Shown here piece after piece: positions 2,919 through 19,315 of a stretch of DNA of 64,000 nucleotides. This stretch comes from Candidatus Lindowbacteria bacterium RIFCSPLOWO2_12_FULL_62_27. GTDB taxonomy: Bacteria > Lindowbacteria > 2-12-FULL-62-27. The stretch's first letter is position 1, and every line of letters starts with the position of its first letter. The notes beneath the pieces are model-generated. The model worked only from the letters and a program-made list of their open reading frames with translations. It did not search any database and was not told the origin of the DNA. The position numbers and the translations under genes were made by a program. The stretch lies in assembly GCA_001784175.1 (NCBI GenBank), contig MFPR01000037.1, positions 1-64,000 of the forward strand, in the 5' to 3' direction.

Positions 2919-4655
2919 ATGAACGACATCCTGCCCGCCGCCGACCGGCTCCGGTTCGAGGAGGAGGCGCGGCTCTATCAGGAAGGGGCCCGCACCGAGG
3001 AGGAATTCAGGAACGCGCGGGTGCCGATGGGCATTTATGAGCAGCGGGAGCACGGCGTATACATGATGCGCATCCGCATCCCCGGCGGCCGGATGACCGC
3101 CTTTCAGCTCATGGCGGTCGCCAACGCGGCCGACCTCTACGGCAACGGCGCGCTGCACTTCACCACGCGCCAGGACGTTCAACTTCACGGCCTGACCGTC
3201 AAGAGCATCGTTCCCGCCCTGCGGGCGCTGCTCAAAGTTGGGCTTCACACGCGGGGCGGCGGCGGGAACACGGTCCGCAACATCACGGCCTGCACGATGT
3301 GCGATCTGACGGGATACGCCATCCTGAACGTTTATCCGTTCGTCCGCAGTCTGACGCAGAAACTTCTGCTCGAACCCGAATCCTACCGCCTGCCGCGGAA
3401 ACTCAAGATCGCGTTTTCGGCGTGCGCGAGGGACTGCCCGGAGGGGGGGTTTTCGGACATCGGCTTTATGGCGCGCTGGCGGGACCACCGGTTCGGCGAA
3501 ACGCTGGGCTTTCAGGTGCTCGTGGGCGGCGGCTTGGGTGCGCGGTCGGCGGCGGCCGTCGAGCTGGAACCGTTTGTGTCGCCGGACGAAGTGTATCTGG
3601 TCGCGGCGGCGATCCGCAGCGTCTATCAGCAGCGCGGGAATTCCGGCGACAAGAACAATTCGCGCCTGCGGTTCCTTGTGCAGTCGCTGGGCCTGGACTC
3701 ATTCAAGAGAATGTATCTTGCGGAAAAAGAATCCTTGCGGGACTTTCTGGCGTGGCCGATCGTTCCGCTCGAAGGCCGTCCGCAGCCGGTGGGGGATCCA
3801 TCCGACATTCCGGCGATCCGGGACCCGGAGATGAACACGTGGGCGTCGGAGTGCGTGCATGAGCAGACGATCGCGGGGTTTTTCGCCGTCACGTCGCCCG
3901 TATCGATGGGCGACATCACCTCCGCGTCGGCCGGGGCGCTGGCCGAATGGCTGTGGAACTCGGACCTGAACGAGGTGCGGCTCACCCAGCAGCAGAATCT
4001 TCTGATTCCGAATGTTCCCGGCAAACGGATCCCGATCCTGTACGATTTCCAGAAGACGGCCGGCATCGTGCGGCCGGCGCCTCCCGCGTTGTCCGGGATG
4101 TGCGTCTGCGCGGGCGCCGGGACATGCCAGCTTGGCATCTGCCGGTCGAAGGACGTGGCGGCCGAAATTTACAAAATGAAGGACAACGCCTACTGGCGGC
4201 ATCCGGCCCTCCGGTTTCTCTCGATCCGATTCAGCGGCTGTATGAACCAGTGCGCGCGGTCGACCACGGCAGTCCTCGGATTTGTCGGCGCAGCGCGGTC
4301 CTTGGATGGCCGCTCCTATCCCGCCTACCAGGTGTTCTGGGGCGGGCAGAGCCGGGGGGCGCATTCGTCCCTGGCGGCGCCGGTGGGGACCGTTCCCGCG
4401 CGCTGGATCACGCCGCTTCTGGACGGATTTCTGGACCGGCTGGCCGCCGTGCTGCCGCGCGACGCGGACGTCGCCCGGATCATTCGCACGGGCCGGCCCA
4501 TCCTTCACGCGTGCCTCGCTGAATTTCAGCAGGCGCCCGGTTACGATACCGCGCCCCTCTTCTACAGGGACTGGGGCGCGGACGACCAGCCCTTCACAAC
4601 CGAAGATAGAGGAAAGGGGGAGTGTTCAGCCGGCGAAACATCGATTGCTTGCTGA
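2919..4655 (+). CDS. siroheme- and 4Fe-4S-containing nitrite/sulfite reductase
   Basis: 578 residues, starting at the ATG at 2919, one base after gltA. The protein shows the duplicated architecture of siroheme reductases: two ferredoxin-like halves, each followed by a nitrite/sulfite reductase domain. The C-terminal half carries the catalytic siroheme/[4Fe-4S] ligands CAGAGTC (C-x5-C) and SGCMNQC (C-x3-C). The N-terminal half has the substrate-site stretch HTRGGGGNTVRNITAC and, unusually, two further pairs, CTMC and CARDC, where single-chain enzymes generally lack a cluster. It reduces nitrite or sulfite by six electrons in the cytoplasm, probably from ferredoxin. Nitrite and sulfite reductases cannot be separated from these motifs. 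Siroheme is also a precursor in the alternative heme route suggested at 43035. Confidence 0.85.
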   Translation: MNDILPAADRLRFEEEARLYQEGARTEEEFRNARVPMGIYEQREHGVYMMRIRIPGGRMTAFQLMAVANAADLYGNGALHFTTRQDVQLHGLTVKSIVPALRALLKVGLHTRGGGGNTVRNITACTMCDLTGYAILNVYPFVRSLTQKLLLEPESYRLPRKLKIAFSACARDCPEGGFSDIGFMARWRDHRFGETLGFQVLVGGGLGARSAAAVELEPFVSPDEVYLVAAAIRSVYQQRGNSGDKNNSRLRFLVQSLGLDSFKRMYLAEKESLRDFLAWPIVPLEGRPQPVGDPSDIPAIRDPEMNTWASECVHEQTIAGFFAVTSPVSMGDITSASAGALAEWLWNSDLNEVRLTQQQNLLIPNVPGKRIPILYDFQKTAGIVRPAPPALSGMCVCAGAGTCQLGICRSKDVAAEIYKMKDNAYWRHPALRFLSIRFSGCMNQCARSTTAVLGFVGAARSLDGRSYPAYQVFWGGQSRGAHSSLAAPVGTVPARWITPLLDGFLDRLAAVLPRDADVARIIRTGRPILHACLAEFQQAPGYDTAPLFYRDWGADDQPFTTEDRGKGECSAGETSIAC

Positions 4656-4665
4656 ACCGACCGAG

Positions 4666-5292
4666 ATGACCGAAACACTGAACAGCCTCATTGACCGCAT
4701 TCAGAAAGAAGGCGTCGAGAAAGCCGACGTGGCGTCGGCCGAAATCATCGCCAAGGCCAAAGACACCGCGGCGTTGATCGTGAAAGAGGCCGAATCCAAA
4801 GCGGCCGACATCCTCGAAAAAGCGAAAAAAGACACGGAGTCCCTCACGGCCCGCAGCAAAAAGACGCTCGAGCAGGCCGCGCGCGACATCGTGCTCACCG
4901 TGGGCCAGGGGGTGGAGAAAGTATTCCGGGACCTGGCCGACCAGGGCGCGGGCGAAGCGCTGTCGGGGGAGGTGCTGGAGCAGACGCTCGTCAAAATCTG
5001 CGACGCGTTCCTCGCCCGCGGCATGACCGACGGCCGGCTGGAGCTTCTGGTGAACCCGAGCGACGTCGATCGTGTCAACGCGTATTTCAAAACGAGGTTC
5101 CGAAAGGCCCTGGAGGCGGGGGTGCAGATCCGGCCGGACGGCGGCATTGTCGCCGGCTTCAAGGTGAAGCTGGCCGGCAAGTCGCTTTCGCTCGATTTCA
5201 CCAAGGAATCGATCGCCGAATCCGTCCTGCAACTGCTCCGGCCGCAGCTTGCCGAGATTGTCCGCGGGGGCTTGGCGGCCGGCCGCGGATGA
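4666..5292 (+). CDS. atpE: V-type ATP synthase subunit E (peripheral stalk)
   Basis: 208 residues. The long Ala/Lys/Glu-rich helix at residues 10-75 (for example IIAKAKDTAALIVKEAESKA) is the N-terminal stalk helix of subunit E, followed by a globular C-terminal domain with the conserved PDGGIVAGFKVK region. I chose the ATG at 4666; the open frame continues upstream inside the reductase gene but has no family similarity there. Its TGA overlaps the ATG of the next gene. It is the first of seven V-ATPase genes and should form the peripheral stalk linking the A3B3 head to subunit I. Confidence 0.88.
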   Translation: MTETLNSLIDRIQKEGVEKADVASAEIIAKAKDTAALIVKEAESKAADILEKAKKDTESLTARSKKTLEQAARDIVLTVGQGVEKVFRDLADQGAGEALSGEVLEQTLVKICDAFLARGMTDGRLELLVNPSDVDRVNAYFKTRFRKALEAGVQIRPDGGIVAGFKVKLAGKSLSLDFTKESIAESVLQLLRPQLAEIVRGGLAAGRG

Positions 5293-5816
5293 GCGCCAAG
5301 TATTTTTATCTGATGTCGAGCCTTCCGACCCTGTCTCTGGACACGCCGCCGCCGCTGACGACGGACCAGTTCCGCCTCCAGTGCAAGACCTGGCTCACAC
5401 CGCTGGAATGGGCGGCGGTGGAGGAAGTCCTGACCTTCAACGAGTCACGGTCGGCCAACCCTTTTCTACTGCGCTGGCGCGACCGCGAAATCCAGCTTCG
5501 GAACGCCATCGCCCGCCAGCGCGCGGCGCGCCTCGGCGTCGATCCCGAGCCGCATCTTCGCGAGCACGGCGCCTACGACGCGTCGACCGACAAGAGCATC
5601 ATCAACGCCTTCGCGCGCCCCACGCCGATCGAACGTGAGATGGAGCTGGACCGTCTGCGCTGGCGGATCGTGGACGAAACGGCGGGGTTCGATCCCTATC
5701 AACTATCCGGTCTGCTCGCCTACGCCTTGAAAATCCGCCTCTCCCGGCGCTGGGCAAAGATGGACGAAGGGCGCGGCCGGGCCGCGCTCGAAGAACTCAT
5801 ACAAAGGACGGCATGA
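5289..5816 (+). CDS. DUF2764 family protein of bacterial V-ATPase operons (subunit C-like)
   Basis: 175 residues, overlapping subunit E by 4 bases. The start MSAKYFYLMSSLPTLSLD is the hallmark of the DUF2764 family, found in the second position of V-ATPase operons of Chlamydiae, Bacteroidetes and some other bacteria, where subunit C (the socket for the central rotor) would be expected. The rest is charged and helical, with tryptophans and RWRDREIQLRNAIARQRA near 60-77. It probably acts as a divergent, shortened subunit C or connector; this role follows from position and family and has not been shown by the sequence itself. Confidence 0.8.
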   Translation: MSAKYFYLMSSLPTLSLDTPPPLTTDQFRLQCKTWLTPLEWAAVEEVLTFNESRSANPFLLRWRDREIQLRNAIARQRAARLGVDPEPHLREHGAYDASTDKSIINAFARPTPIEREMELDRLRWRIVDETAGFDPYQLSGLLAYALKIRLSRRWAKMDEGRGRAALEELIQRTA

Positions 5817-5820
5817 CCCC

Positions 5821-7548
5821 ATGAGCAACACAGGAACCATTGTCGGCGTGAACGGAAACATGATCACCGTGGAATTCGGCGGCGACGTTCAGCAGAACGA
5901 AGTCGGCTACGCGAAGACGGACAGTCTGGAACTCAAGGCCGAGATCATCCGCATCCGCGGGCGCCGCGCGGACATGCAGGTCTTCGAGGACACCACGGGC
6001 CTCACGGTGGGAAACCCCGTCGAATTCAGCGGGGAACTTCTGACGGTGGAACTCGGTCCCGGGCTCCTCACGCAAATTTTCGACGGCCTCCAGAACCCGC
6101 TGCCCCAGCTCGCCGAAAAATGCGGATTCTTCCTCCAGCGCGGCATGTACCTTCCGGCGCTCCCGCGCGCAAAATCCTGGGACTTCACGCCGGCCGCCAA
6201 ACCCGGCGACACCGTCACCGGCGGCGACACGCTGGGAACGGTGCCCGAGGGAATCTTTCAACATCACATCATGGTCCCGTTTTCGGTCCGGTCCGAGTGC
6301 CGGGTCGAGGAGGTCGCGCCCGCCGGGGCGTACAAGGTCGAGCAGGTCATCGCGCGCCTGAAGGACGACCGCGGTCAGGCCCTCGAAGTGACGCTCATGC
6401 AGCGCTGGCCGGTCAAGATCCCGATCAAGAATTACGTCGAACGCATCAAGCCCGTCGATCCGCTCGTGACGAAGATCCGGATCATCGACACGTTCTTTCC
6501 CGTCGCCCGCGGCGGCACCTTCTGCGTGCCGGGGCCGTTCGGCGCCGGCAAGACGGTGCTGCAGCAGATGACGAGCCGGCAGGCCGAGGTCGACGTCGTG
6601 ATCATCGCCGCCTGCGGAGAGCGCGCGGGGGAGGTGGTGGAGACGCTGCGCGAGTTTCCGGAGGTGATGGACCCGCGCACCGGCCGCAGTCTCATGGAAC
6701 GGACGATCATCATCTGCAACACAAGCTCGATGCCGGTGGCGGCGCGGGAGGCGTCCGTCTACACGGGCGTCACGCTGGCCGAGTACTACCGGCAGATGGG
6801 CCTGCACGCGCTCCTGTTGGCCGATTCGACGAGCCGCTGGGCGCAGGCGCTGCGGGAGATGTCGGGCCGGCTGGAGGAGATTCCGGGCGAGGAGGCGTTC
6901 CCGGCGTATCTCGAGTCGGTGATCGCCGCCTTCTACGAGCGCGCGGGTCTTGTGCGCTTGAAGGACGGCCGGACCGGATCGATCACCGTCGGCGGCACGG
7001 TCAGCCCCGCCGGCGGGAACTTCGAGGAGCCCGTCACGCAGGCGACCCTCAAGGTCGTCGGCGCCTTTCACGGCCTGTCCCGCGAGCGGTCCGACGCCCG
7101 CAAATTCCCCGCGATCCATCCGCTCGACAGTTGGACCAAATACACGAGCGTCGTGTCCGACAAAGATGTGGCGGCCGCCAAGCGCACCCTGCGCGCGGGC
7201 ACGCACGTCGAGCAGATGATGAAGGTCATCGGGGAGGAGGGCACGTCGATCGACGATTTTGTGACGTATCTCAAGGCCAAATATCTGGACGACGTGTATC
7301 TTCAGCAGGACGGCTTCGACGCCGTCGACGGCGCGACGCCGGCCGACCGGCAGAAATATGTGTTCGGGATCATCGTGCGGATCCTCGAAACGGCCCTGAA
7401 TTTCGCCGACAAGGACGCCGCCCGGAAATTTTTCAACCAGCTCACGCAGAAAACCAAGGACTGGAACCGCGCGGCGTCGGGAACGCCGGAGTTTCAGGAA
7501 ATCGAAAAGCAAATTCAGGCGGGACTTGCGGAGGTGACGCGCTCATGA
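5821..7548 (+). CDS. atpA: V-type ATP synthase catalytic subunit A
   Basis: 575 residues, full length for the family. The protein has the N-terminal beta barrel ([15 protein letters not shown]), the non-homologous insertion specific to A subunits (about 115-190), the P-loop PGPFGAGKT near residue 240 and the Walker B region [19 protein letters not shown]. It forms the three catalytic nucleotide sites of the V1 head. It begins 4 bases after the DUF2764 gene, and its TGA overlaps the ATG of subunit B. Confidence 0.97.
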
Positions 7549-8849
7549 AGAAGGTCTATCATCGCATTGAGAAAATCGTCGGAAACGTCCTGACCATCCG
7601 GGCGTCCGACGTCACGTACCGGGAACTGGCTGAGGTCACGTCCCGGCGGGGCGTGTCGCTGGCGCAGGTGATCCGGCTCGACGGCGAGTTCGTGTCGCTG
7701 CAGGTGTTCTCGGGCAGCCGGGGCATCGAGACGGACGCGCAGGTGCGATTCTTGAGCCATCCGATGACGATCCCGTTTTCGGATTCGCTCCTCGGCCGGA
7801 TTTTCACCGGCGGCGGCCAGCCCCGCGACAAGGGTCCCGGCCTCTACGAAAACCCGATCCCGATCGGCGGCCCGTCGGTCAACCCCGCCAAGCGCATCAT
7901 CCCGCGGCGGATGATCCGCACGGGCATTCCGATGATCGACGTGTTCAACACGCTGGTCGAGTCGCAGAAACTCCCGATCTTCTCCGTGGCCGGCGAGCCT
8001 TACAATCCGCTCCTCGCGCGGATCGCGCTTCAGGCCGAGGTCGACGTCATCGTTCTGGGCGGGATCGGCCTCAAGTACGACGACTATCTGTTTTTCCGGG
8101 ATTTCCTGGACGAAAACGGGGCGCTGGGCCGGTCGGTCCTCTTTATCCACACCGCCTCCGACCCCATCGTCGAGTCGCTCCTGGTGCCCGACGTGAGCCT
8201 GGCGGTGGCGGAGCAGTTCGCGATCAAGGGCAAGCGCGTTCTGACGCTCCTGACCGACATGACAAACTTCGCGGACGCGATGAAGGAGATCGCCATCACG
8301 ATGGAACAGATTCCCTCCAACCGCGGATACCCCGGCGACCTCTACAGCCAGCTCGCGTCGCGGTACGAGAAGGCCGTCGACTTCGAGGGCGCCGGATCCA
8401 TCACCATCCTCGCCGTGACCACCATGCCCGGCGACGACGTCACGCACCCGGTGCCGGACAACACCGGATACATCACCGAGGGCCAGTTCTACCTGCGCAC
8501 CGGCCGCATCGAGCCGTTCGGGTCGCTGTCGCGTCTGAAGCAGCTCGTGAACGCCAAGACGCGCGAGGACCACCGCACCATCATGAACTCGATGATCCAG
8601 CTTTACGCCTCCTACCGCGAGACGCTGGAGAAACAGGCGATGGGATTCAGGATGAGCGTCTGGGACACGAAGCTTCTTAAATATGGAGGGCGGTTCGAGC
8701 GCGAGATGATGGACCTGACCGTCAACATCCAGCTCGAAGCGGCGCTGGATCTCGGCTGGAAGATTCTCGCGGACTGTTTCGATCCGGCCGAAACCGGCAT
8801 TCCGTCGAAACTGCTCAAGAAGTTCTGGCCCGAAAAGGCTGCCGTGTAA
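7545..8849 (+). CDS. atpB: V-type ATP synthase non-catalytic subunit B
   Basis: 434 residues from the ATG at 7545, overlapping subunit A by 4 bases. The B-subunit signature is clear: [39 protein letters not shown], where the P-loop of subunit A is replaced by a sequence without the GKT motif. Further on are [21 protein letters not shown] and the [14 protein letters not shown] region. It alternates with A subunits in the A3B3 head and contributes the arginine finger to the catalytic site. Confidence 0.97.
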
Positions 8850-8853
8850 GCGC

Positions 8854-9459
8854 GTGGCGAAGGTCAAGTTCACCAAGAATGAGCTCAAGGCGCAGCGCGA
8901 CGCGTTCGCGCTCTACCGCCGGTTCCTCCCGACGCTCCAGCTCAAGAAGAAGCAGCTTTTGTCGGAGATGAAGCAGGTGGAGGCGAAGATCGATGAGAAG
9001 AAATCGGAGGAGCGGCGGGTCCGTGCGGAGATGGACGCGTGGGTGAAACTGTTTTCGGAACCCGTGCCGCCGGAACATTTTCCGAGAATCAAGGAAATCC
9101 GAAAAGGGGAATCGAACGTCGCCGGCGTCAACATCCCCGTCCTCAAGGAAGTCATTTTCAGCGTCGACCGCCGCGATCTCTTCGCGACGCCCGCGTGGAT
9201 TGACGACGCGGCCAAGGCCCTGGAGGCGCTGGCGCGCATGAGGATCGAGCAGGGCATCCTGGCGGAGCAGGCGCGGCTGATCTCGGAGGAGCTGACCGCG
9301 ACGACCCAGCGGGTGAACCTGTTCGAGAAGGTCAAAATCCCGGAGTGCCGCAAAAACATCCGGCTGATCCAGATTTTCCTGGGCGACCAGCAGACCGCGG
9401 GCGTCGCGCGCGCGAAAATCGCCAAGGGCCGTGTGGTCGAGGAGGTGGCCGTAGCGTGA
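8854..9459 (+). CDS. atpD: V-type ATP synthase central-stalk subunit D
   Basis: 201 residues starting at the GTG at 8854 (gtg gcg aag gtc aag), 4 bases after subunit B. The protein is dominated by two long helices: residues 1-70 (FTKNELKAQRDAFALYRRFLPTLQ and KKKQLL) and about 110-190, with a short middle segment. This is the antiparallel coiled-coil rotor shaft of subunit D. No subunit F gene is visible in the operon, as in chlamydial V-ATPases. The stop overlaps the GTG start of subunit I. Confidence 0.9.
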   Translation: MAKVKFTKNELKAQRDAFALYRRFLPTLQLKKKQLLSEMKQVEAKIDEKKSEERRVRAEMDAWVKLFSEPVPPEHFPRIKEIRKGESNVAGVNIPVLKEVIFSVDRRDLFATPAWIDDAAKALEALARMRIEQGILAEQARLISEELTATTQRVNLFEKVKIPECRKNIRLIQIFLGDQQTAGVARAKIAKGRVVEEVAVA

Positions 9460-11267
9460 TTGTGGGAATGAAAAAGGTTTCCGTCCTGTGCCTGGCCTCG
9501 GCCCGCGAGGGCTCGCTGGAGGCGATGCGGGAGATGGGCGTACTGCACGTCATCAGCGGCAAGGCGCCGGAAAGCGACGAACTGAAACGCGCCGAAGAGA
9601 ACCTGGGGAACGCCCAGCGCGTCCTCGAGGTTCTCGGGCGGCAGAAGCAGTCGAAGAAACAGATGATGGCCGCGTTCGCGAAGATCCTCCAGCCCGGCGT
9701 CGAGATGGTCTCGTCCGTCGATGACCTGCTCGAACGCGTGACGGGGCAGATCAACCGCAACCACGAGCTGGACGTGCGGATCGAGGCGCTGACGCACGAG
9801 ATCGGTCAGATCGAGCCGCTGGGCCGGTTCGATCCGGAGTCCGTCCGGCGCCTCGGGGAGCGCGGCGTCACGATCCAGCTCTACTACGCGGCCGCGAGCG
9901 AGCGCCTCACGGCGCCGGAAACGGCCGTCAAGATCGAGATTCAGAAAACCCGTCGCGGCGAATATTTCGCACTGGCCGCGTTCGGCCCCATCGCGTGGGA
10001 CAAGGCGCCCCTGCCGATGCCCAAACGGTCCATCGATGCGGCCGCGGCGGAGCTGTCCAAGTCCCTCGCCGAGCGCGAGGAGGGCGAGCGCCGGCTCCAG
10101 ATGCTGAGCGTGTATCACGACGTGGTCGTCCGCCACGTCCTGCGCCTCGAGGACAGCGTGCGCTTCATCGAGACGAAATCCGTCATGCCGGTCGCGGGGA
10201 AGGTATCGTATCTGCGGGGATTCTGCCCCGAGGACAGGGTGGAGGCGCTGCGGAAAGAGTCCGTGGCGCGCGGCTGGGGGCTTTTGGTGGAAGACCCGGC
10301 CGAGGGCGAGCCGGTGCCGACCCTCGTCCGAAATCCGAAATGGTGCCGGTCGATCAAGACGGCCTTTGACGTCCTCGGGCTCATGCCGGGCTACAAGGAG
10401 GTCGACATCAGCGCGGTCTTCCTTTTGTTCTTCAGCCTCTTCTTCGCCATGCTGGTTGGCGACGCCTGTTACGGCCTGATCTTCCTCGGGCTTACCCTGG
10501 CCGCCCGGCGCGCGTACGATGATGCGCCGGCTGCGCCGTTCACGCTGCTCAAAATCCTGAGCGTCTGCACGATTGTCTGGGGCGTCGCCACCGGCACCTA
10601 TTTCGGCATGAGCGACCCGCCGGCCTTTTTGCTCGCGTTCAAGATCGACTGGCTGGCGCAGGAGAGCAATCTGATGAATCTCTGTTTTCTCCTCGGCGCC
10701 GTCCAGCTCACCATCGCGCATGTGTGGAACATCACCCGGTACTGGTGGAGCCTCAAGGTCCTCGACGAGGCGGGCCGGATTTTGATCACGTGGACGATGT
10801 TTTTCGCCGCCCGCACGATGATCCTGGGCGCCGTGTTTCCGACCTGGATGTTCTATTTCTTCGGCGCGGGCGTTCTGGCGTTGATTCTGTTCATGACGCC
10901 CGTCAAACAACTCAAAACCGAGTGGTACAACCACGTGATGCTGCCGCTCAACATCATCAGCATGTTCGTCGACGTCGTGTCCTACGTGCGGCTCTTCGCC
11001 GTGGGCTTTGCGGGCTTCGCGATCGCGAACAATTTCAACGAAATGGCGCTCGGCGCCGGCGCGCCCGGCCCCCTGGCGGGTCTGGGGTCGGCGCTGATTT
11101 TGTTTTTGGGGCACTCTCTCAATATAGTTCTTTCGTGCATGGGCGTGCTGGTTCACGGAATCCGGCTGAACGCCCTCGAATTTTCCGGGCACCTCGGCAT
11201 GCAGTGGTCGGGATACGCCTACAATCCATTTGCTCGAATGGATTCACAACCTCGCAAAGGAGATTGA
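9456..11267 (+). CDS. atpI: V-type ATP synthase subunit I (membrane stator, a-subunit homologue)
   Basis: 603 residues. I chose the GTG at 9456 because GAGGAGGT lies 9 bases upstream and it overlaps the stop of subunit D; an ATG at 9468 is the alternative. Residues 1-340 form the cytoplasmic domain with long coiled-coil arms; residues 345-585 hold about seven to eight membrane segments, including the conserved VDVVSYVRLFAVGFAGFAIANNFNEMA, whose Arg faces the rotor ring ion site. It forms the ion half-channels together with the K ring. Spacing to subunit K is 3 bases. Confidence 0.93.
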   Translation: MIVGMKKVSVLCLASAREGSLEAMREMGVLHVISGKAPESDELKRAEENLGNAQRVLEVLGRQKQSKKQMMAAFAKILQPGVEMVSSVDDLLERVTGQINRNHELDVRIEALTHEIGQIEPLGRFDPESVRRLGERGVTIQLYYAAASERLTAPETAVKIEIQKTRRGEYFALAAFGPIAWDKAPLPMPKRSIDAAAAELSKSLAEREEGERRLQMLSVYHDVVVRHVLRLEDSVRFIETKSVMPVAGKVSYLRGFCPEDRVEALRKESVARGWGLLVEDPAEGEPVPTLVRNPKWCRSIKTAFDVLGLMPGYKEVDISAVFLLFFSLFFAMLVGDACYGLIFLGLTLAARRAYDDAPAAPFTLLKILSVCTIVWGVATGTYFGMSDPPAFLLAFKIDWLAQESNLMNLCFLLGAVQLTIAHVWNITRYWWSLKVLDEAGRILITWTMFFAARTMILGAVFPTWMFYFFGAGVLALILFMTPVKQLKTEWYNHVMLPLNIISMFVDVVSYVRLFAVGFAGFAIANNFNEMALGAGAPGPLAGLGSALILFLGHSLNIVLSCMGVLVHGIRLNALEFSGHLGMQWSGYAYNPFARMDSQPRKGD

Positions 11268-11270
11268 TTC

Positions 11271-11723
11271 ATGGATGCCGCAACAATCGTATCGCTCGGC
11301 AAGTTCGGCGGCGCCGCCGCCCTGGGACTGGCCGCGGTCGGATCGTCGATGGGCTCGGGAATCGCGGGCATGGCGGCGGTCGGCGCGTGGAAGAAATGCT
11401 ACGCGCAAAACCGCCTCGCGCCCTTTCTGCTCGTCGCCTTCATCGGCGCTCCGCTGTCCCAGACGATTTACGGGATGATCACGATGAACAACATCGTCAA
11501 GGCCGCCGTGGCCGGCACAAGCTGGCCCGCGCTGATCGGCGCCGGATTTTTCGGAGGCCTCGGCATGGGTGCTTCGGCCTGGGGCCAGGGCATGGCGGGC
11601 GCCGCGGGCGCCGACGCGCTGGCCGAAACCGGCAAGGGCTTCGGCAACTACCTCATCGCGCTGGGCGTCATCGAGACCGTCGCCATCTTCGTGATGATTT
11701 TCATCGGCAAGGTGATCGCCTGA
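11271..11723 (+). CDS. atpK: V-type ATP synthase subunit K (rotor proteolipid), probable Na+ type
   Basis: 150 residues with four membrane helices in two similar hairpins, the duplicated c-type proteolipid. AAAGGAG precedes the ATG. The ion carboxylate is E135 (VIETVAIF) in helix 4; the first hairpin lacks an equivalent acid, as usual for V-type K. Compared from memory with Enterococcus hirae NtpK, the Na+ ligands T64, Q65, Q110 and E139 correspond to S63, Q64, Q106 and E135 here, so hydroxyl and both glutamines are kept. This predicts Na+ coupling. It is the last gene of the operon and faces the convergent gene at 11741 with only 17 bases between. Confidence 0.92.
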   Translation: MDAATIVSLGKFGGAAALGLAAVGSSMGSGIAGMAAVGAWKKCYAQNRLAPFLLVAFIGAPLSQTIYGMITMNNIVKAAVAGTSWPALIGAGFFGGLGMGASAWGQGMAGAAGADALAETGKGFGNYLIALGVIETVAIFVMIFIGKVIA

Positions 11724-13566: not shown

Positions 13567-15786
13567 ATGGCCGTTTCGCCTGAAGGCGCCTGGCGGCCCT
13601 TTCCGGAGCTGGACGGCCGCATTCTCTTTGACGAGCCGACGGGCCGGATCCGCTTTTCGCGCAAAGCCCCGCTGGTGTCGCTGTCCGCGACCGTCGTGGC
13701 CGTCCGGCACGGCGAAACCGCCTGGAACGCCGTCGAGAATTCGTGGCAGGGGAGCGTCAACGCAAGAAAGAACCAGTTGACCGACCACGGGATCGAGCAG
13801 GCGGAGCGCGCCGCGCGGCAACTGTTCCGGCAGATCAAGGCGGACGTGCGGTCGAAGAAGGAGATCCGGCGCCGGTTTGACGAACTCGTGATCTTCACGA
13901 GCGAGCTCAACCGCGCCCGCGACACGGCAAGAATTTTCGTCCGGTACGCCGCCGCGGAGCTCAGAAAATCGGGTATTCCGTTTCGTCCCCGCATCCGGGT
14001 CGACGGCCGGCTGAACGAAATCTCGTTCGGATTCTGGGACAACAAGACCCTCGATGAGATCGAGCGGGAAAGCCCCGAAGAGGGGGAGCGGGCCCGGTCC
14101 TACATGCGCCTGAACGCGCTGGCGCGGTCCGGCAAGGGCCGGCGACGCGGGGAGCGGTTCATCGACGTGGTGGGCCGCGGCCTTGATTTTCTGAAGTCGC
14201 TTCAGGCGCCGGCCTACGAAGAGAAGCTCATCCTGATTTTCAGTTCGGCCGTCCTGATCAACGCCCTGCGCGTGAGTTTCGGCGACCGGTCATTGGAAAA
14301 CCGCGACGGCGTGATCGACTGGCGGTCCTACTCGCCGCCCCACGGCCGGCAGTCGCTGCTCACCGAAGGCCGCGGCGGTTCGTGGTTCGGCGATCTCGAC
14401 AGCGCCGTCGACCGGCTCTACAACGAAATGGACCTGACGCTCCGTGAGGACGTCATGTCGAGATTTCTGGACGAGTTCGTGCGCCAGATGAAGGACGGCC
14501 CGGCCGGCAGCGCAGCGTCTTTGGCCATGGAAAAGGGTTTTTTCTCGCGGCCGGTGTCGCTGTCGCCCGGCCATTTCATGGGCGTCGACCTTGGCGGGAC
14601 CTACCTGCGGATATTGCTGGCGGAAGTGACGCCGGACCGGCGGATCGACGAGGCGTCGATGGTCTCCGAGGAATTTGTCATTCCGGACCGCTACAAAACG
14701 GGCGACCGGTACAGGCCCGCCAAGGGTGAGGACCTGTTCCGGTTCATCGCCGGCCTCATCGAACAGATTCTGACTGCGTCGCCCGACCGCGACATCGGCT
14801 GGAAAGCGGGTCTGACGGTGGCGTTTCCGATGCGGCTGACCGGCGCCTCCAGCGGCGCGTTCACGGAGGACATCGGTTGGATCAAGGGCTGGAGCATTCC
14901 GGACCTGATCGGCCGGGACCCGGCGCGGATGCTGCAGGAGGCGCTGGCGGACCGCAAGCTCACGCGTCCGGAAATCCGGGCGCTGGCGGACGACACGGTG
15001 GGGACGCTCTTGGCGGGGGAAGTTTTGGACGGGTCAACGTTTGGCGCGTGCGTCATCGGCACGGGCATGGACGTGGCGGTCTGGGAGGGCGACACGGTCC
15101 TGGACGTGGGCGCGGGGAGGTTCGATTTGGCGTCGTGCGCGGACATGATCACGAGTTTCGACCGGATCGTCGACCGCGCCTCGGGCCGGCCGGGCGCGCG
15201 GCGGCTGGAGAAGATGGTATCGGCCAAATACATGCCGGAACTGATGCGGGCCATCCTCGGCGAATTCATCCACCACGAGTTTCTCTTCGACGGTTTCCGG
15301 TCCTCCGTCCTCGAACGGCCGTACCACGAGCTGGACAATCCGCAGGCCTTCCGCGCCCAGGACCTGTCCACGATGGTGCTCGACGACGAACGGCATGAAA
15401 TCGTCCGGAACGTTCTCGAACGCGTGGGGGTTCGGGAAAGCACCCTGGATGAAAGGATCGTCACGCGCCGGATCGCGCAGATGATCCTGACGCGGTCGGC
15501 TCAACTGTCGGCCCTGGCGATGGCCGCGACCCTCCGGCACGCCAACGGCGCTCCTGACCGGGTCAGCGCCTCCGGCGCCCCAAGTGCCGGCGTCTCCGAC
15601 GCCGGCCGGGACTACACATTCACGCTGGACGGCAACGTGGCCGGCCGCGCCGCCGGATACCAGCAGATCCTGCGGGACACGCTGGAGCTCGCCCTGGGCG
15701 CGCCTCTGGCGGCCCGCGTGCGCCTGCGCTACCGGAAATTCGCAAGCGCCATCGGCGGCTGCATCATGGCATCAAGCGTCGGGTGA
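13567..15786 (+). CDS. fusion protein: histidine-phosphatase-like domain plus hexokinase-type sugar kinase
   Basis: 739 residues. Residues 40-290 are a phosphoglycerate-mutase/FBPase-2-like domain: VAVRHGETAWN (catalytic H48), TSELNRARDTA and LNEISFGFWDNKT with its acid. At the place of the second catalytic His the sequence is IFSSAVLINAL (S226-S227), so the phosphatase may be inactive or altered. Residues 335-735 match eukaryotic-type hexokinase: MGVDLGGTYLRILLAE, AFPMRLTG, IGWIKGW, ADDTVGTLLAG with the catalytic Asp, CVIGTGMDVAVWE and IVDRASGRPGARRLEKMVSAKY. The protein should phosphorylate hexoses from ATP. Residues about 665-681 are encoded by a 52-base dispersed repeat in the loop before the C-terminal strand TFTLDGNVA. 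The gene starts 15 bases after yceI. The domain assignments are firm; the biological logic of the fusion is not known. Confidence 0.85.
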   Translation: MAVSPEGAWRPFPELDGRILFDEPTGRIRFSRKAPLVSLSATVVAVRHGETAWNAVENSWQGSVNARKNQLTDHGIEQAERAARQLFRQIKADVRSKKEIRRRFDELVIFTSELNRARDTARIFVRYAAAELRKSGIPFRPRIRVDGRLNEISFGFWDNKTLDEIERESPEEGERARSYMRLNALARSGKGRRRGERFIDVVGRGLDFLKSLQAPAYEEKLILIFSSAVLINALRVSFGDRSLENRDGVIDWRSYSPPHGRQSLLTEGRGGSWFGDLDSAVDRLYNEMDLTLREDVMSRFLDEFVRQMKDGPAGSAASLAMEKGFFSRPVSLSPGHFMGVDLGGTYLRILLAEVTPDRRIDEASMVSEEFVIPDRYKTGDRYRPAKGEDLFRFIAGLIEQILTASPDRDIGWKAGLTVAFPMRLTGASSGAFTEDIGWIKGWSIPDLIGRDPARMLQEALADRKLTRPEIRALADDTVGTLLAGEVLDGSTFGACVIGTGMDVAVWEGDTVLDVGAGRFDLASCADMITSFDRIVDRASGRPGARRLEKMVSAKYMPELMRAILGEFIHHEFLFDGFRSSVLERPYHELDNPQAFRAQDLSTMVLDDERHEIVRNVLERVGVRESTLDERIVTRRIAQMILTRSAQLSALAMAATLRHANGAPDRVSASGAPSAGVSDAGRDYTFTLDGNVAGRAAGYQQILRDTLELALGAPLAARVRLRYRKFASAIGGCIMASSVG
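15558..15609 (+). repeat. 52-base double-hairpin dispersed repeat, copy 1 (inside hexokinase fusion)
   Basis: Identical over 52 bases to 44484-44535. It holds two hairpins: a short one (GCGCC-tcc-GGCGC) and a 9-bp perfect stem GCCGGCGTC-tcc-GACGCCGGC. It is translated in frame as RVSASGAPSAGVSDAGR within a hexokinase loop. A half copy is at 48072-48095. Confidence 0.85.
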
Positions 15787-16896: not shown

Positions 16897-19281
16897 TCAC
16901 CGCCACTTCCAGTTCCGGATGGCCGGCATGTCCTCTCCGTGCTGCTCGATGTACTGTTTGTGCTCGATGAGCCGTTCGCGGATCGACTGTTTGAGGTGGG
17001 CCGCATGTGCGCCCAGCCGGGGCAGGCGGTCGATGACGTCCTCGGCGAGGTGGAATCGGTCCATGTCGTTCAAGACGGTCATGTCGAAGGGCGTCGTCGT
17101 CGTGCCTTCCTCCTTGTAGCCGCGCACGTGAATGTTCTTGTGATTGGCCCGCCGGTAGGTGAGCCGGTGGATGAGCCAGGGGTATCCGTGGAACGCGAAG
17201 ATGACCGGCTTGTTTCTGGTGAAGAGGACGTCAAATTCCTTGTCGTCGAGCCCATGCGGGTGCTCGCGGGCCGGCTGAAGCTTCATGAGGTCGACCACGT
17301 TGATCACGCGAATCTTAAGTTTCGGAATGAACTTCCGCAGAATCCCGACCGCCGCCAGCGTTTCCATCGTCGGCACATCGCCCGCGCAGGCCATCACGAC
17401 GTCGGGCTCGCCGCCGCGGTCCGTGCTCGCCCATTCCCAGATGCCGGCGCCGGCCGTGCAGTGTTTGACGGCGGCGTCCATGTCGAGCCACTGCGGCGCG
17501 GGCTGTTTGCCGGCCACGATGACGTTGACGTAGTTGCGGCTGCGCAGGCAGTGATCGGTGACGGACAGCAGGGTGTTCGCGTCCGGCGGGAGATAGACCC
17601 GGACGACCTCGGCTTTTTTGTTGATCACGTGGTCGAGAAATCCCGGGTCCTGATGGCTGAACCCGTTATGGTCCTGGCGCCACACGTGTGACGTCAGGAG
17701 ATAATTCAGGGACGCGATCGGCCGGCGCCAGGGGATGTGGCGCGTTGTTTTGAGCCATTTGGCGTGCTGGTTGAACATCGAGTCGATGATGTGAATGAAC
17801 GCCTCGTAACAGTTGAAGAACCCGTGCCGGCCGGTCAGGAGATACCCTTCGAGCCAGCCCTGGCACAGGTGCTCGCTCAAGACCTCCATCACGCGGCCGT
17901 CCGGCGAGACGTGGTCGTCGATTTTCAGAATTTCGCCCATGGAACAGCGGTCGGTCACCTCAAACACCGCCGTCCAGCGGTTCGACGCCGTCTCGTCCGG
18001 GCCGAAGATCCGGAAGGTGTCGGGATTGAGCTTGATCACATCGCGCAAAAATTGCCCCTGCACGCGCGCGGCCTCCGCCTCCACCGCGCCGGGCTTCCGG
18101 ACCGCCACGGCGAACTTCCGAAAATCGGGCATCCGAAGATCGCGCAGGAGCGCGCCGCCGTTGGCGTGCGGGTTGGCGCTCATCCGCCGCTCGCCCCGCG
18201 GCGCCAGGTCCGCCAGCGCCGGAATCAGCCGGCCCCCCGGATCGAAGAGTTCCTCCGGCCGGTAGCTCTTCATCCATTTCTCGAGGATACTGATATGTTC
18301 CAGCCGGTCCATGTCGCCCATCGGCACCTGATGCGCGCGGAACGTGTTCTCGACGGGCTTGCCGTCGACCTCCTTCGGCCCCGTCCAGCCCTTGGGCGTT
18401 CGCAGGATAATCACAGGCCAGTGCGGGCGGTGGACCCCCCCAAGGGGGGTGCGCGCGTCCCGCTGAATCTCCCGGATGTCGGACACAACGCGATCCAGCG
18501 TCTCCGCCATGAGCCGGTGCATCTTCGGTGGATCGTCGCCCTCGACGAAATAGGGCCGGTATCCGTATCCGCGAAAGAGCGCCTCCAGCTCCTCGCGCGG
18601 CATGCGGCCCATGATCGTAGGGCCGGCGATTTTGTAGCCGTTCAGGTGAAGAATCGGCAGAACGGCGCCGTCGCGGGCGGGATTCAGGAATTTGTTCGAA
18701 TGCCAGCTCGCGGCGAGCGGCCCGGTTTCGGCCTCGCCATCGCCGATGACGCAGGCCGCAAGGAGTTCCGGATTGTCGAAGACCGCGCCGAAGGCGTGGA
18801 CGAGCGCGTAGCCGAGCTCCCCGCCCTCGTGGATCGACCCCGGCGTTTCCGGCGCGACGTGGCTCGGGATTCCGCCGGGAAAGGAAAACTGCTTGAACAG
18901 CCGCTTCATCCCCGCCTCATCCCGCGAAACGTCCGGGTACACCTCGCTGTAGGTCCCTTCGAGGTACGCGTTGGCCACCAGTCCGGGCCCGCCGTGTCCG
19001 GGCCCGGTGATGTAGATCGTGTTGAGATCGTTCACCCGGATGAGGCGGTTCAGGTGGGCGTAGATGAAATTCAACCCGGGCGTGGTGCCCCAGTGCCCGA
19101 GGAGCCGCGGCTTGATGTGCCGCCGGGTCAGGGGAATCTTCAAGAGAGGATTGTCATAGAGATAAATCTGCCCGACGGACAGGTAATTGGCGGCCCGCCA
19201 GTAGGCGTCGATTTTGCGCAGCCAGTCGGGCGTTGCAGGTTTATTTTTTGAAGGCATTCGGACGATGTTTTCAAGCGTCAT
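16897..19281 (-). CDS. xfp: phosphoketolase (xylulose-5-P/fructose-6-P)
   Basis: 794 residues, full length. I chose the ATG at 19281 because GGGAGGT lies about 9 bases upstream; an ATG at 19239 (MPSKNKP) is the alternative. Family landmarks include [47 protein letters not shown], the thiamine diphosphate site [38 protein letters not shown] and [18 protein letters not shown]. The enzyme splits xylulose-5-phosphate (and often fructose-6-phosphate) with phosphate into acetyl phosphate and an aldose phosphate. Acetyl phosphate could be used by the acetate kinase at 37135. A promoter-like pair lies at 19316-19344. The CDF exporter follows in the same direction. Confidence 0.96.
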
Positions 19282-19315
19282 ACAGGGTACACCTCCCACG
19301 GTTTTTTCAAGATGG

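Follow-up and report, generated by a model that had tools for sequence, protein, structure and literature searches.

Kinase-phosphatase fusions in known systems

Eukaryotic proteins that fuse a kinase to a histidine phosphatase serve as metabolic switches, with PFKFB acting on glycolysis and PPIP5K on phosphate signaling. In PFKFB (PFK-2/FBPase-2, including yeast PFK26), an N-terminal sugar-metabolite kinase of the P-loop, adenylate-kinase-like type is joined to a branch-1 histidine-phosphatase domain. In the fungal PFK2 subfamily 2, this phosphatase domain has lost the His of its RHG motif. Moreover, yeast PFK26 is a PFKFB-type protein in which one of the two activities has been lost (PMC9721465). 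PPIP5K (Vip1/Asp1) combines a kinase of the ATP-grasp fold, which uses inositol phosphates as substrates, with a phytase-like phosphatase of branch 2, and it has no His at the position of the second catalytic His. For instance, Lys990 occupies this position in the branch-2 phosphatase of ScVip1, and the enzyme is active (PMC11836120).

The bacterial protein described here resembles both groups in joining a kinase to a histidine phosphatase, and it shares with PPIP5K the absence of a His at the second-His position. Nevertheless, it belongs to neither. In contrast to PFKFB, its kinase is C-terminal and of the hexokinase (ASKHA) fold; Pfam output for the protein contains no 6PF2K domain, and the kinase region is instead covered by Hexokinase_1 and Hexokinase_2. 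FBPase-2 is defined by two catalytic His residues, of which the fusion lacks the second, whereas fungal PFK2 subfamily 2 lacks the first. In contrast to PPIP5K, its domains are arranged in a different order, its phosphatase is of branch 1, and its kinase does not have the ATP-grasp fold. A design that combines a kinase with a histidine phosphatase is therefore already known, and it is the pairing with a hexokinase fold, with both sites altered, that is new. A nonexhaustive search of the open-access literature found no description of this domain pair.

The fusion also adds to the sparse eukaryotic-type hexokinases of bacteria: of 386 prokaryote genomes sampled, 5 carry such an enzyme, and all of 14 control genomes lack it. 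According to a recent review, this type of hexokinase is eukaryotic, and how it relates to the glucokinases of bacteria is unknown (PMC12696579).

Gene and domain architecture

The gene lies on the forward strand at positions 13567 to 15786 (stop codon counted) of the window, which is the entire 64,000-nucleotide stretch of DNA that was analyzed; all features of the gene given below are on this strand. The open reading frame begins with an ATG 15 bases past the stop of a YceI-family gene and runs for 739 codons without an internal stop. The protein matches three Pfam families above their curated cut-offs: His_Phos_1 (PF00300) at residues 44 to 245 (E = 3.6e-21; 76.2 bits versus a gathering score of 21.7), Hexokinase_1 (PF00349) at residues 289 to 484 (E = 2.2e-30; 106.4 bits versus a cut-off of about 24), and Hexokinase_2 (PF03727) at residues 509 to 735 (E = 3e-31; 109.1 bits versus a cut-off of about 24). 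The initial annotation, whose coordinates and motifs were correct, had proposed that a single 739-residue frame joins both domains and had called for a domain search; the uninterrupted frame and the three Pfam families found by that search bear out the proposal.

Residues 1 to 39 (13567 to 13683) form an N-terminal extension that aligns with free phosphatases from two other genomes, G237 and G386, and that contains strands at residues 9 to 11, 19 to 22, and 27 to 30 in an AlphaFold model. The histidine phosphatase (branch 1) domain follows at residues ~40 to 250 (13684 to 14316), as evidenced by Pfam, the AlphaFold model, and structural alignment with VIA-align. The hexokinase-fold domain occupies residues 289 to 739 (14431 to 15783), as evidenced by the two Pfam hexokinase families and phmmer. 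A less conserved linker segment (residues 301 to 333; 14467 to 14565; 61% identity) overlaps helix 1 of the kinase domain. Among solved structures, Bacillus PhoE is nearest in sequence to the N-terminal part of the protein, and human hexokinase 2 is nearest to its C-terminal part (phmmer, E of about 1e-57).

An altered phosphatase site

Alignments with PhoE and other relatives place the nucleophile, His48, in an RHG motif formed by R47, H48, and G49 (13705 to 13713). Arg116 (13912 to 13914) is the equivalent of PhoE Arg59, and Glu151 (14017 to 14019), the proton donor, is the equivalent of PhoE Glu83, such that R47, H48, R116, and E151 of the fusion align with R9, H10, R59, and E83 of PhoE. 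Apart from the second catalytic His, all site residues that were checked are kept (R47, H48, N54, Q61, R116, and E151).

The second catalytic His had been reported as replaced by Ser, and alignments with PhoE, with the family profile, and with free homologs agree that it is. Ser227 (14245 to 14247) pairs with the catalytic His151 of Bacillus stearothermophilus PhoE, and the ortholog of the fusion (see below) has the same residue. The strongest evidence for the exchange comes from free, N-extended members of the same subfamily that keep the His: the fusion reads FSSAVLINALR, versus FAHGTLINALR in G237 and FSHGAFINALR in G386. Indeed, His occupies this position in all other branch-1 phosphatases aligned over the site, from viral contigs and bacteria alike. 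The G237 and G386 proteins share the alignable N-terminal extension and the INALR motif with the fusion (36% identity over residues 19 to 254 for G237), yet they are unfused, encoded beside or near serA, and without an insertion of 9 to 10 residues that is found only in the fused forms. This insertion (residues 255 to 264, YSPPHGRQSL; 14329 to 14358) carries the conserved residues His259 and Arg261.

Structural modeling of residues 1 to 310 (pLDDT 78, pTM 0.78) gives a clear histidine-phosphatase fold, although model confidence is low near residue 259 (pLDDT of about 60). Compared to solved structures using VIA-align, the model scores highest with phosphoserine phosphatase (PspA) and glucosyl-3-phosphoglycerate phosphatase (Z = 19.2), followed by PhoE (Z = 18.5) and the FBPase-2 domain (Z = 17.4). 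The domain had been described as FBPase-2/PGM-like; its assignment to the branch-1 histidine phosphatases stands, whereas a special proximity to FBPase-2 does not, considering that the domain is no closer to FBPase-2 than to the PspA and PhoE types. The fusion has in common with the latter enzymes the fold, the RHG motif, and the Asn, Gln, Arg, and Glu residues of the site, and it differs from them in the exchange of the second His for Ser, the N-terminal extension, and the attached kinase. The equivalog profile for phosphoserine phosphatase of the PspA type (NF045917) gave 26.1 bits, far below its cut-off of 350, and a branch-2 histidine-phosphatase model gave E = 0.082, which is likewise under its cut-off. 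From its sequence, it is plausible that the phosphatase domain acts as a sensor or regulator without hydrolysis.

An altered glucose pocket in the kinase

Residues of the kinase site were mapped by alignment to human hexokinases and three free bacterial hexokinases (from G286, G056, and G237). The fusion shares with eukaryotic-type hexokinases (PF00349/PF03727) a full-length domain, the ATP loops, the catalytic Asp, and the equivalents of glucokinase (GCK) Lys169 and Glu290. Specifically, the phosphate-binding motif DLGGT (residues 341 to 345; 14587 to 14601) is kept, as are the GTG of the ATP loop GTGMD (498 to 502; 15058 to 15072), the adenosine motif D688-G689-N690 (DGS in GCK; 15628 to 15636), Lys440, the catalytic base Asp476 (GCK Asp205), and Glu548 (GCK Glu290; 15208 to 15210).

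In contrast to these enzymes, the fusion has replacements at four positions that contact glucose, and the phosphatase is attached. Thr168 of GCK is Ile439 in the segment I439-K440-G441 (14881 to 14889), Asn204 is Asp475 in D475-D476-T477 (14989 to 14997), Asn231 is Asp502 at the end of GTGMD, and Glu256 is Gly515 in DVGAG (513 to 517; 15103 to 15117). The loop preceding DVGAG is also ~15 residues shorter than that of the G286 hexokinase. A further neighbor of the glucose site, which we take to be Ser151 in GCK numbering, is Ala419 in the fusion. By comparison, the free hexokinases of G286, G056, and G237 all retain N204, N231, and E256.

Glucose contacts in human GCK are made by T168, K169, N204, D205, N231, E256, and E290 (PMC2270336, PMC3567010), and four of these seven are thus replaced, identically in both orthologs of the fusion. 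In human GCK, the N204A and E256A variants show essentially no activity, even when glucose is raised to 200 mM (PMC3567010). Because of these replacements and the inactivity of the corresponding GCK variants, the kinase domain, as judged from its residues, is not a canonical glucose-binding hexokinase; it could be catalytically dead, or it could act on a sugar via a different geometry. The initial annotation had called the hexokinase complete, which holds for its length and for the catalytic Asp, Lys, and ATP motifs, but not for the glucose pocket.

Conservation of the fusion

When 84,980 species genomes were scanned for close relatives, one further full-length copy came up, on the groundwater metagenome-assembled genome (MAG) contig JACQOF010000085.1 (locus L005, the contig of G002:C51). 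This ortholog, which answers an earlier suggestion to look for the same domain pair in related genomes, is 72% identical to the window protein, continuously through both domains. Identity between the two is 77 to 84% in the phosphatase part and 71% in the kinase part, and the best-conserved block, at 84%, is residues 251 to 300, directly after the phosphatase core. By the Nei-Gojobori method, dN/dS is estimated at ~0.12 in the phosphatase and ~0.24 in the kinase, indicating that purifying selection is acting on both domains, with the conservation measured on one pair of orthologs (n = 2) from one small phylum. This phylum is represented by three genomes in the set examined, including G001 and G002, and the third genome, G001, has no hexokinase and no close relative of the phosphatase. 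Searching 386 diverse genomes by profile yielded no third fusion; likewise, no relatives of the fusion were found in the scanned viral contigs, and a plasmid collection gave no match.

The two copies have different neighbors. In the window, a V/A-type ATPase cluster (identified by sequence inspection) and the YceI gene lie upstream of the fusion, and a cation-efflux gene and a phosphoketolase gene lie downstream on the opposite strand. In L005, genes for a class III fructose-bisphosphatase and a deoxyhypusine-synthase homolog lie upstream, and a gene for a CBS-domain protein lies downstream. Gene neighborhood therefore provides no hint of a pathway.

Several of these neighbors are worth recording in their own right. 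The phosphoketolase of the window is a xylulose-5-phosphate/fructose-6-phosphate phosphoketolase (16897 to 19299, reverse strand; ~1.1 kb downstream of the fusion gene), and the V/A-type ATPase cluster (4600 to 11723) follows citrate synthase and nitrite/sulfite reductase genes identified by Pfam. Adjoining the fusion ortholog is a gene for a 1,009-amino-acid Cas9d-like protein (L005:8805-11834, JACQOF010000085.1), whose score of 222 bits does not reach the Cas9d cut-off of 375 and whose host belongs to a little-known bacterial phylum.

Possible functions of the fusion

In both sites, key substrate-handling residues were exchanged and the new residues have since been conserved, so the task of the protein is probably not simply to phosphorylate glucose. 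Our best explanation, which we largely infer and hold with somewhat less than even confidence, is a fusion on the pattern of PFKFB and PPIP5K: its kinase would handle some ligand that is not glucose, and its phosphatase-like domain would bind a phosphorylated ligand, with hydrolytic activity weakened or lost. In this scheme, a kinase of the hexokinase (ASKHA) fold would have been recruited independently into a two-domain design of the PFKFB/PPIP5K kind. The kinase domain would still bind ATP, and what it acts on or senses would be something different from glucose. The phosphatase-like domain, in which R47, H48, R116, and E151 are present, would still capture a phosphorylated metabolite; hydrolysis would be slow or absent, and whether this domain is occupied would regulate the attached kinase domain. 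More tentatively still, the protein may be an independently evolved regulatory fusion, wherein a hexokinase-fold kinase with a reengineered pocket is controlled by a phosphatase domain turned phospho-metabolite sensor. If so, it would be a bacterial hexokinase-fold counterpart of the eukaryotic proteins, and the same switch design would have evolved again.

A missing second His is not in itself proof that hydrolysis is lost, because ScVip1 is active without the equivalent residue. For the same reason, a true bifunctional enzyme is a serious rival, if on balance a doubtful one. Here, the phosphatase would work via Ser227, another residue, or His259, and it would oppose or feed the kinase on a shared metabolite. 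Retention of the nucleophile His48, both Arg residues, and the Glu proton donor is consistent with this idea, as is the position of the insertion with His259 and Arg261 just past the altered site in fused forms only; moreover, the ScVip1 phosphatase has a Lys at the equivalent position (PMC11836120). However, ScVip1 is a branch-2 enzyme with a phosphoanhydride substrate, every other branch-1 protein aligned over the site keeps its His, and the model is of low confidence precisely around residue 259.

It is less likely that both domains are pseudoenzymes that only bind ligands, making the protein a metabolite sensor or scaffold akin to the noncatalytic hexokinase-like sensors. Both sites are changed at positions that are critical in relatives, and selection has been retained, as such a role would allow. 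Nevertheless, the protein retains Asp476, Lys440, the ATP loops of the kinase, and the phosphatase nucleophile, as fully dead enzymes seldom do. It also lacks a DNA-binding or partner domain, and its gene has no conserved neighbor.

Another reading is that of an ordinary hexokinase carrying a spare, decaying phosphatase domain. The full length of the kinase and its high-scoring Pfam matches fit such a reading, but it is improbable: the supposedly decaying phosphatase is more conserved than the kinase by both dN/dS and identity, and the glucose site is altered. The same genome also encodes a PFK and a polyphosphate glucokinase (314 bits versus a curated cut-off of 250), and so the fusion is not needed for ordinary glucose phosphorylation. 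Lastly, an assembly or annotation artifact that fused two genes, for which we found no supporting point, has next to no likelihood; misassembly, a frameshift, and two separate genes (the outcome that would have undone the initial annotation) are rejected because an independent MAG contig carries the same unbroken, full-length fusion with the same site residues, and because both domains are under purifying selection.

Free relatives and the origin of the fusion

In the genomes that were sampled, members of the N-extended phosphatase subfamily turned up in G000, G002, G237, and G386 and nowhere else. The last two belong to another small phylum, and their phosphatases are unfused. A serA-like phosphoglycerate-dehydrogenase gene lies directly beside the phosphatase gene in G237 and about 1.4 kb from it in G386, which hints at a serine-pathway ancestry of the phosphatase. 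Since the free relatives adjoin or neighbor serA, one may guess from this gene neighborhood that the substrate of the ancestral phosphatase was a small phosphate bearing a carboxyl group, for example phosphoserine.

The G237 genome encodes the phosphatase and a hexokinase as separate genes, with both sites unaltered. On this small number of genomes, such a gene pair would fit a functional link from which a fusion later arose. The fusion is therefore a testable case of two active sites that changed after fusion, because unfused, unaltered relatives of both domains exist within one genome of another phylum.

These searches also revealed proteins that merit attention apart from the fusion. The N-extended histidine phosphatases near serA-like genes (L045:8639-10710 and L044:6769-10937; G237 and G386) may, as their gene neighborhood suggests, represent an unrecognized type of phosphoserine phosphatase. 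Three free eukaryotic-type bacterial hexokinases are encoded at L014, L015, and L016 (G286, G056, and G237), and the G237 gene adjoins one that, on inspection only, resembles mannose-6-phosphate isomerase. Finally, viral contigs recurrently encode a protein of ~318 to 332 amino acids that combines a histidine phosphatase (PF00300), its His intact, with a cytidylyltransferase-like domain (PF01467); an example is found at L076:2909-3892, and others occur in L078, L083, L085, L090, L099, L101, L103, and further contigs.
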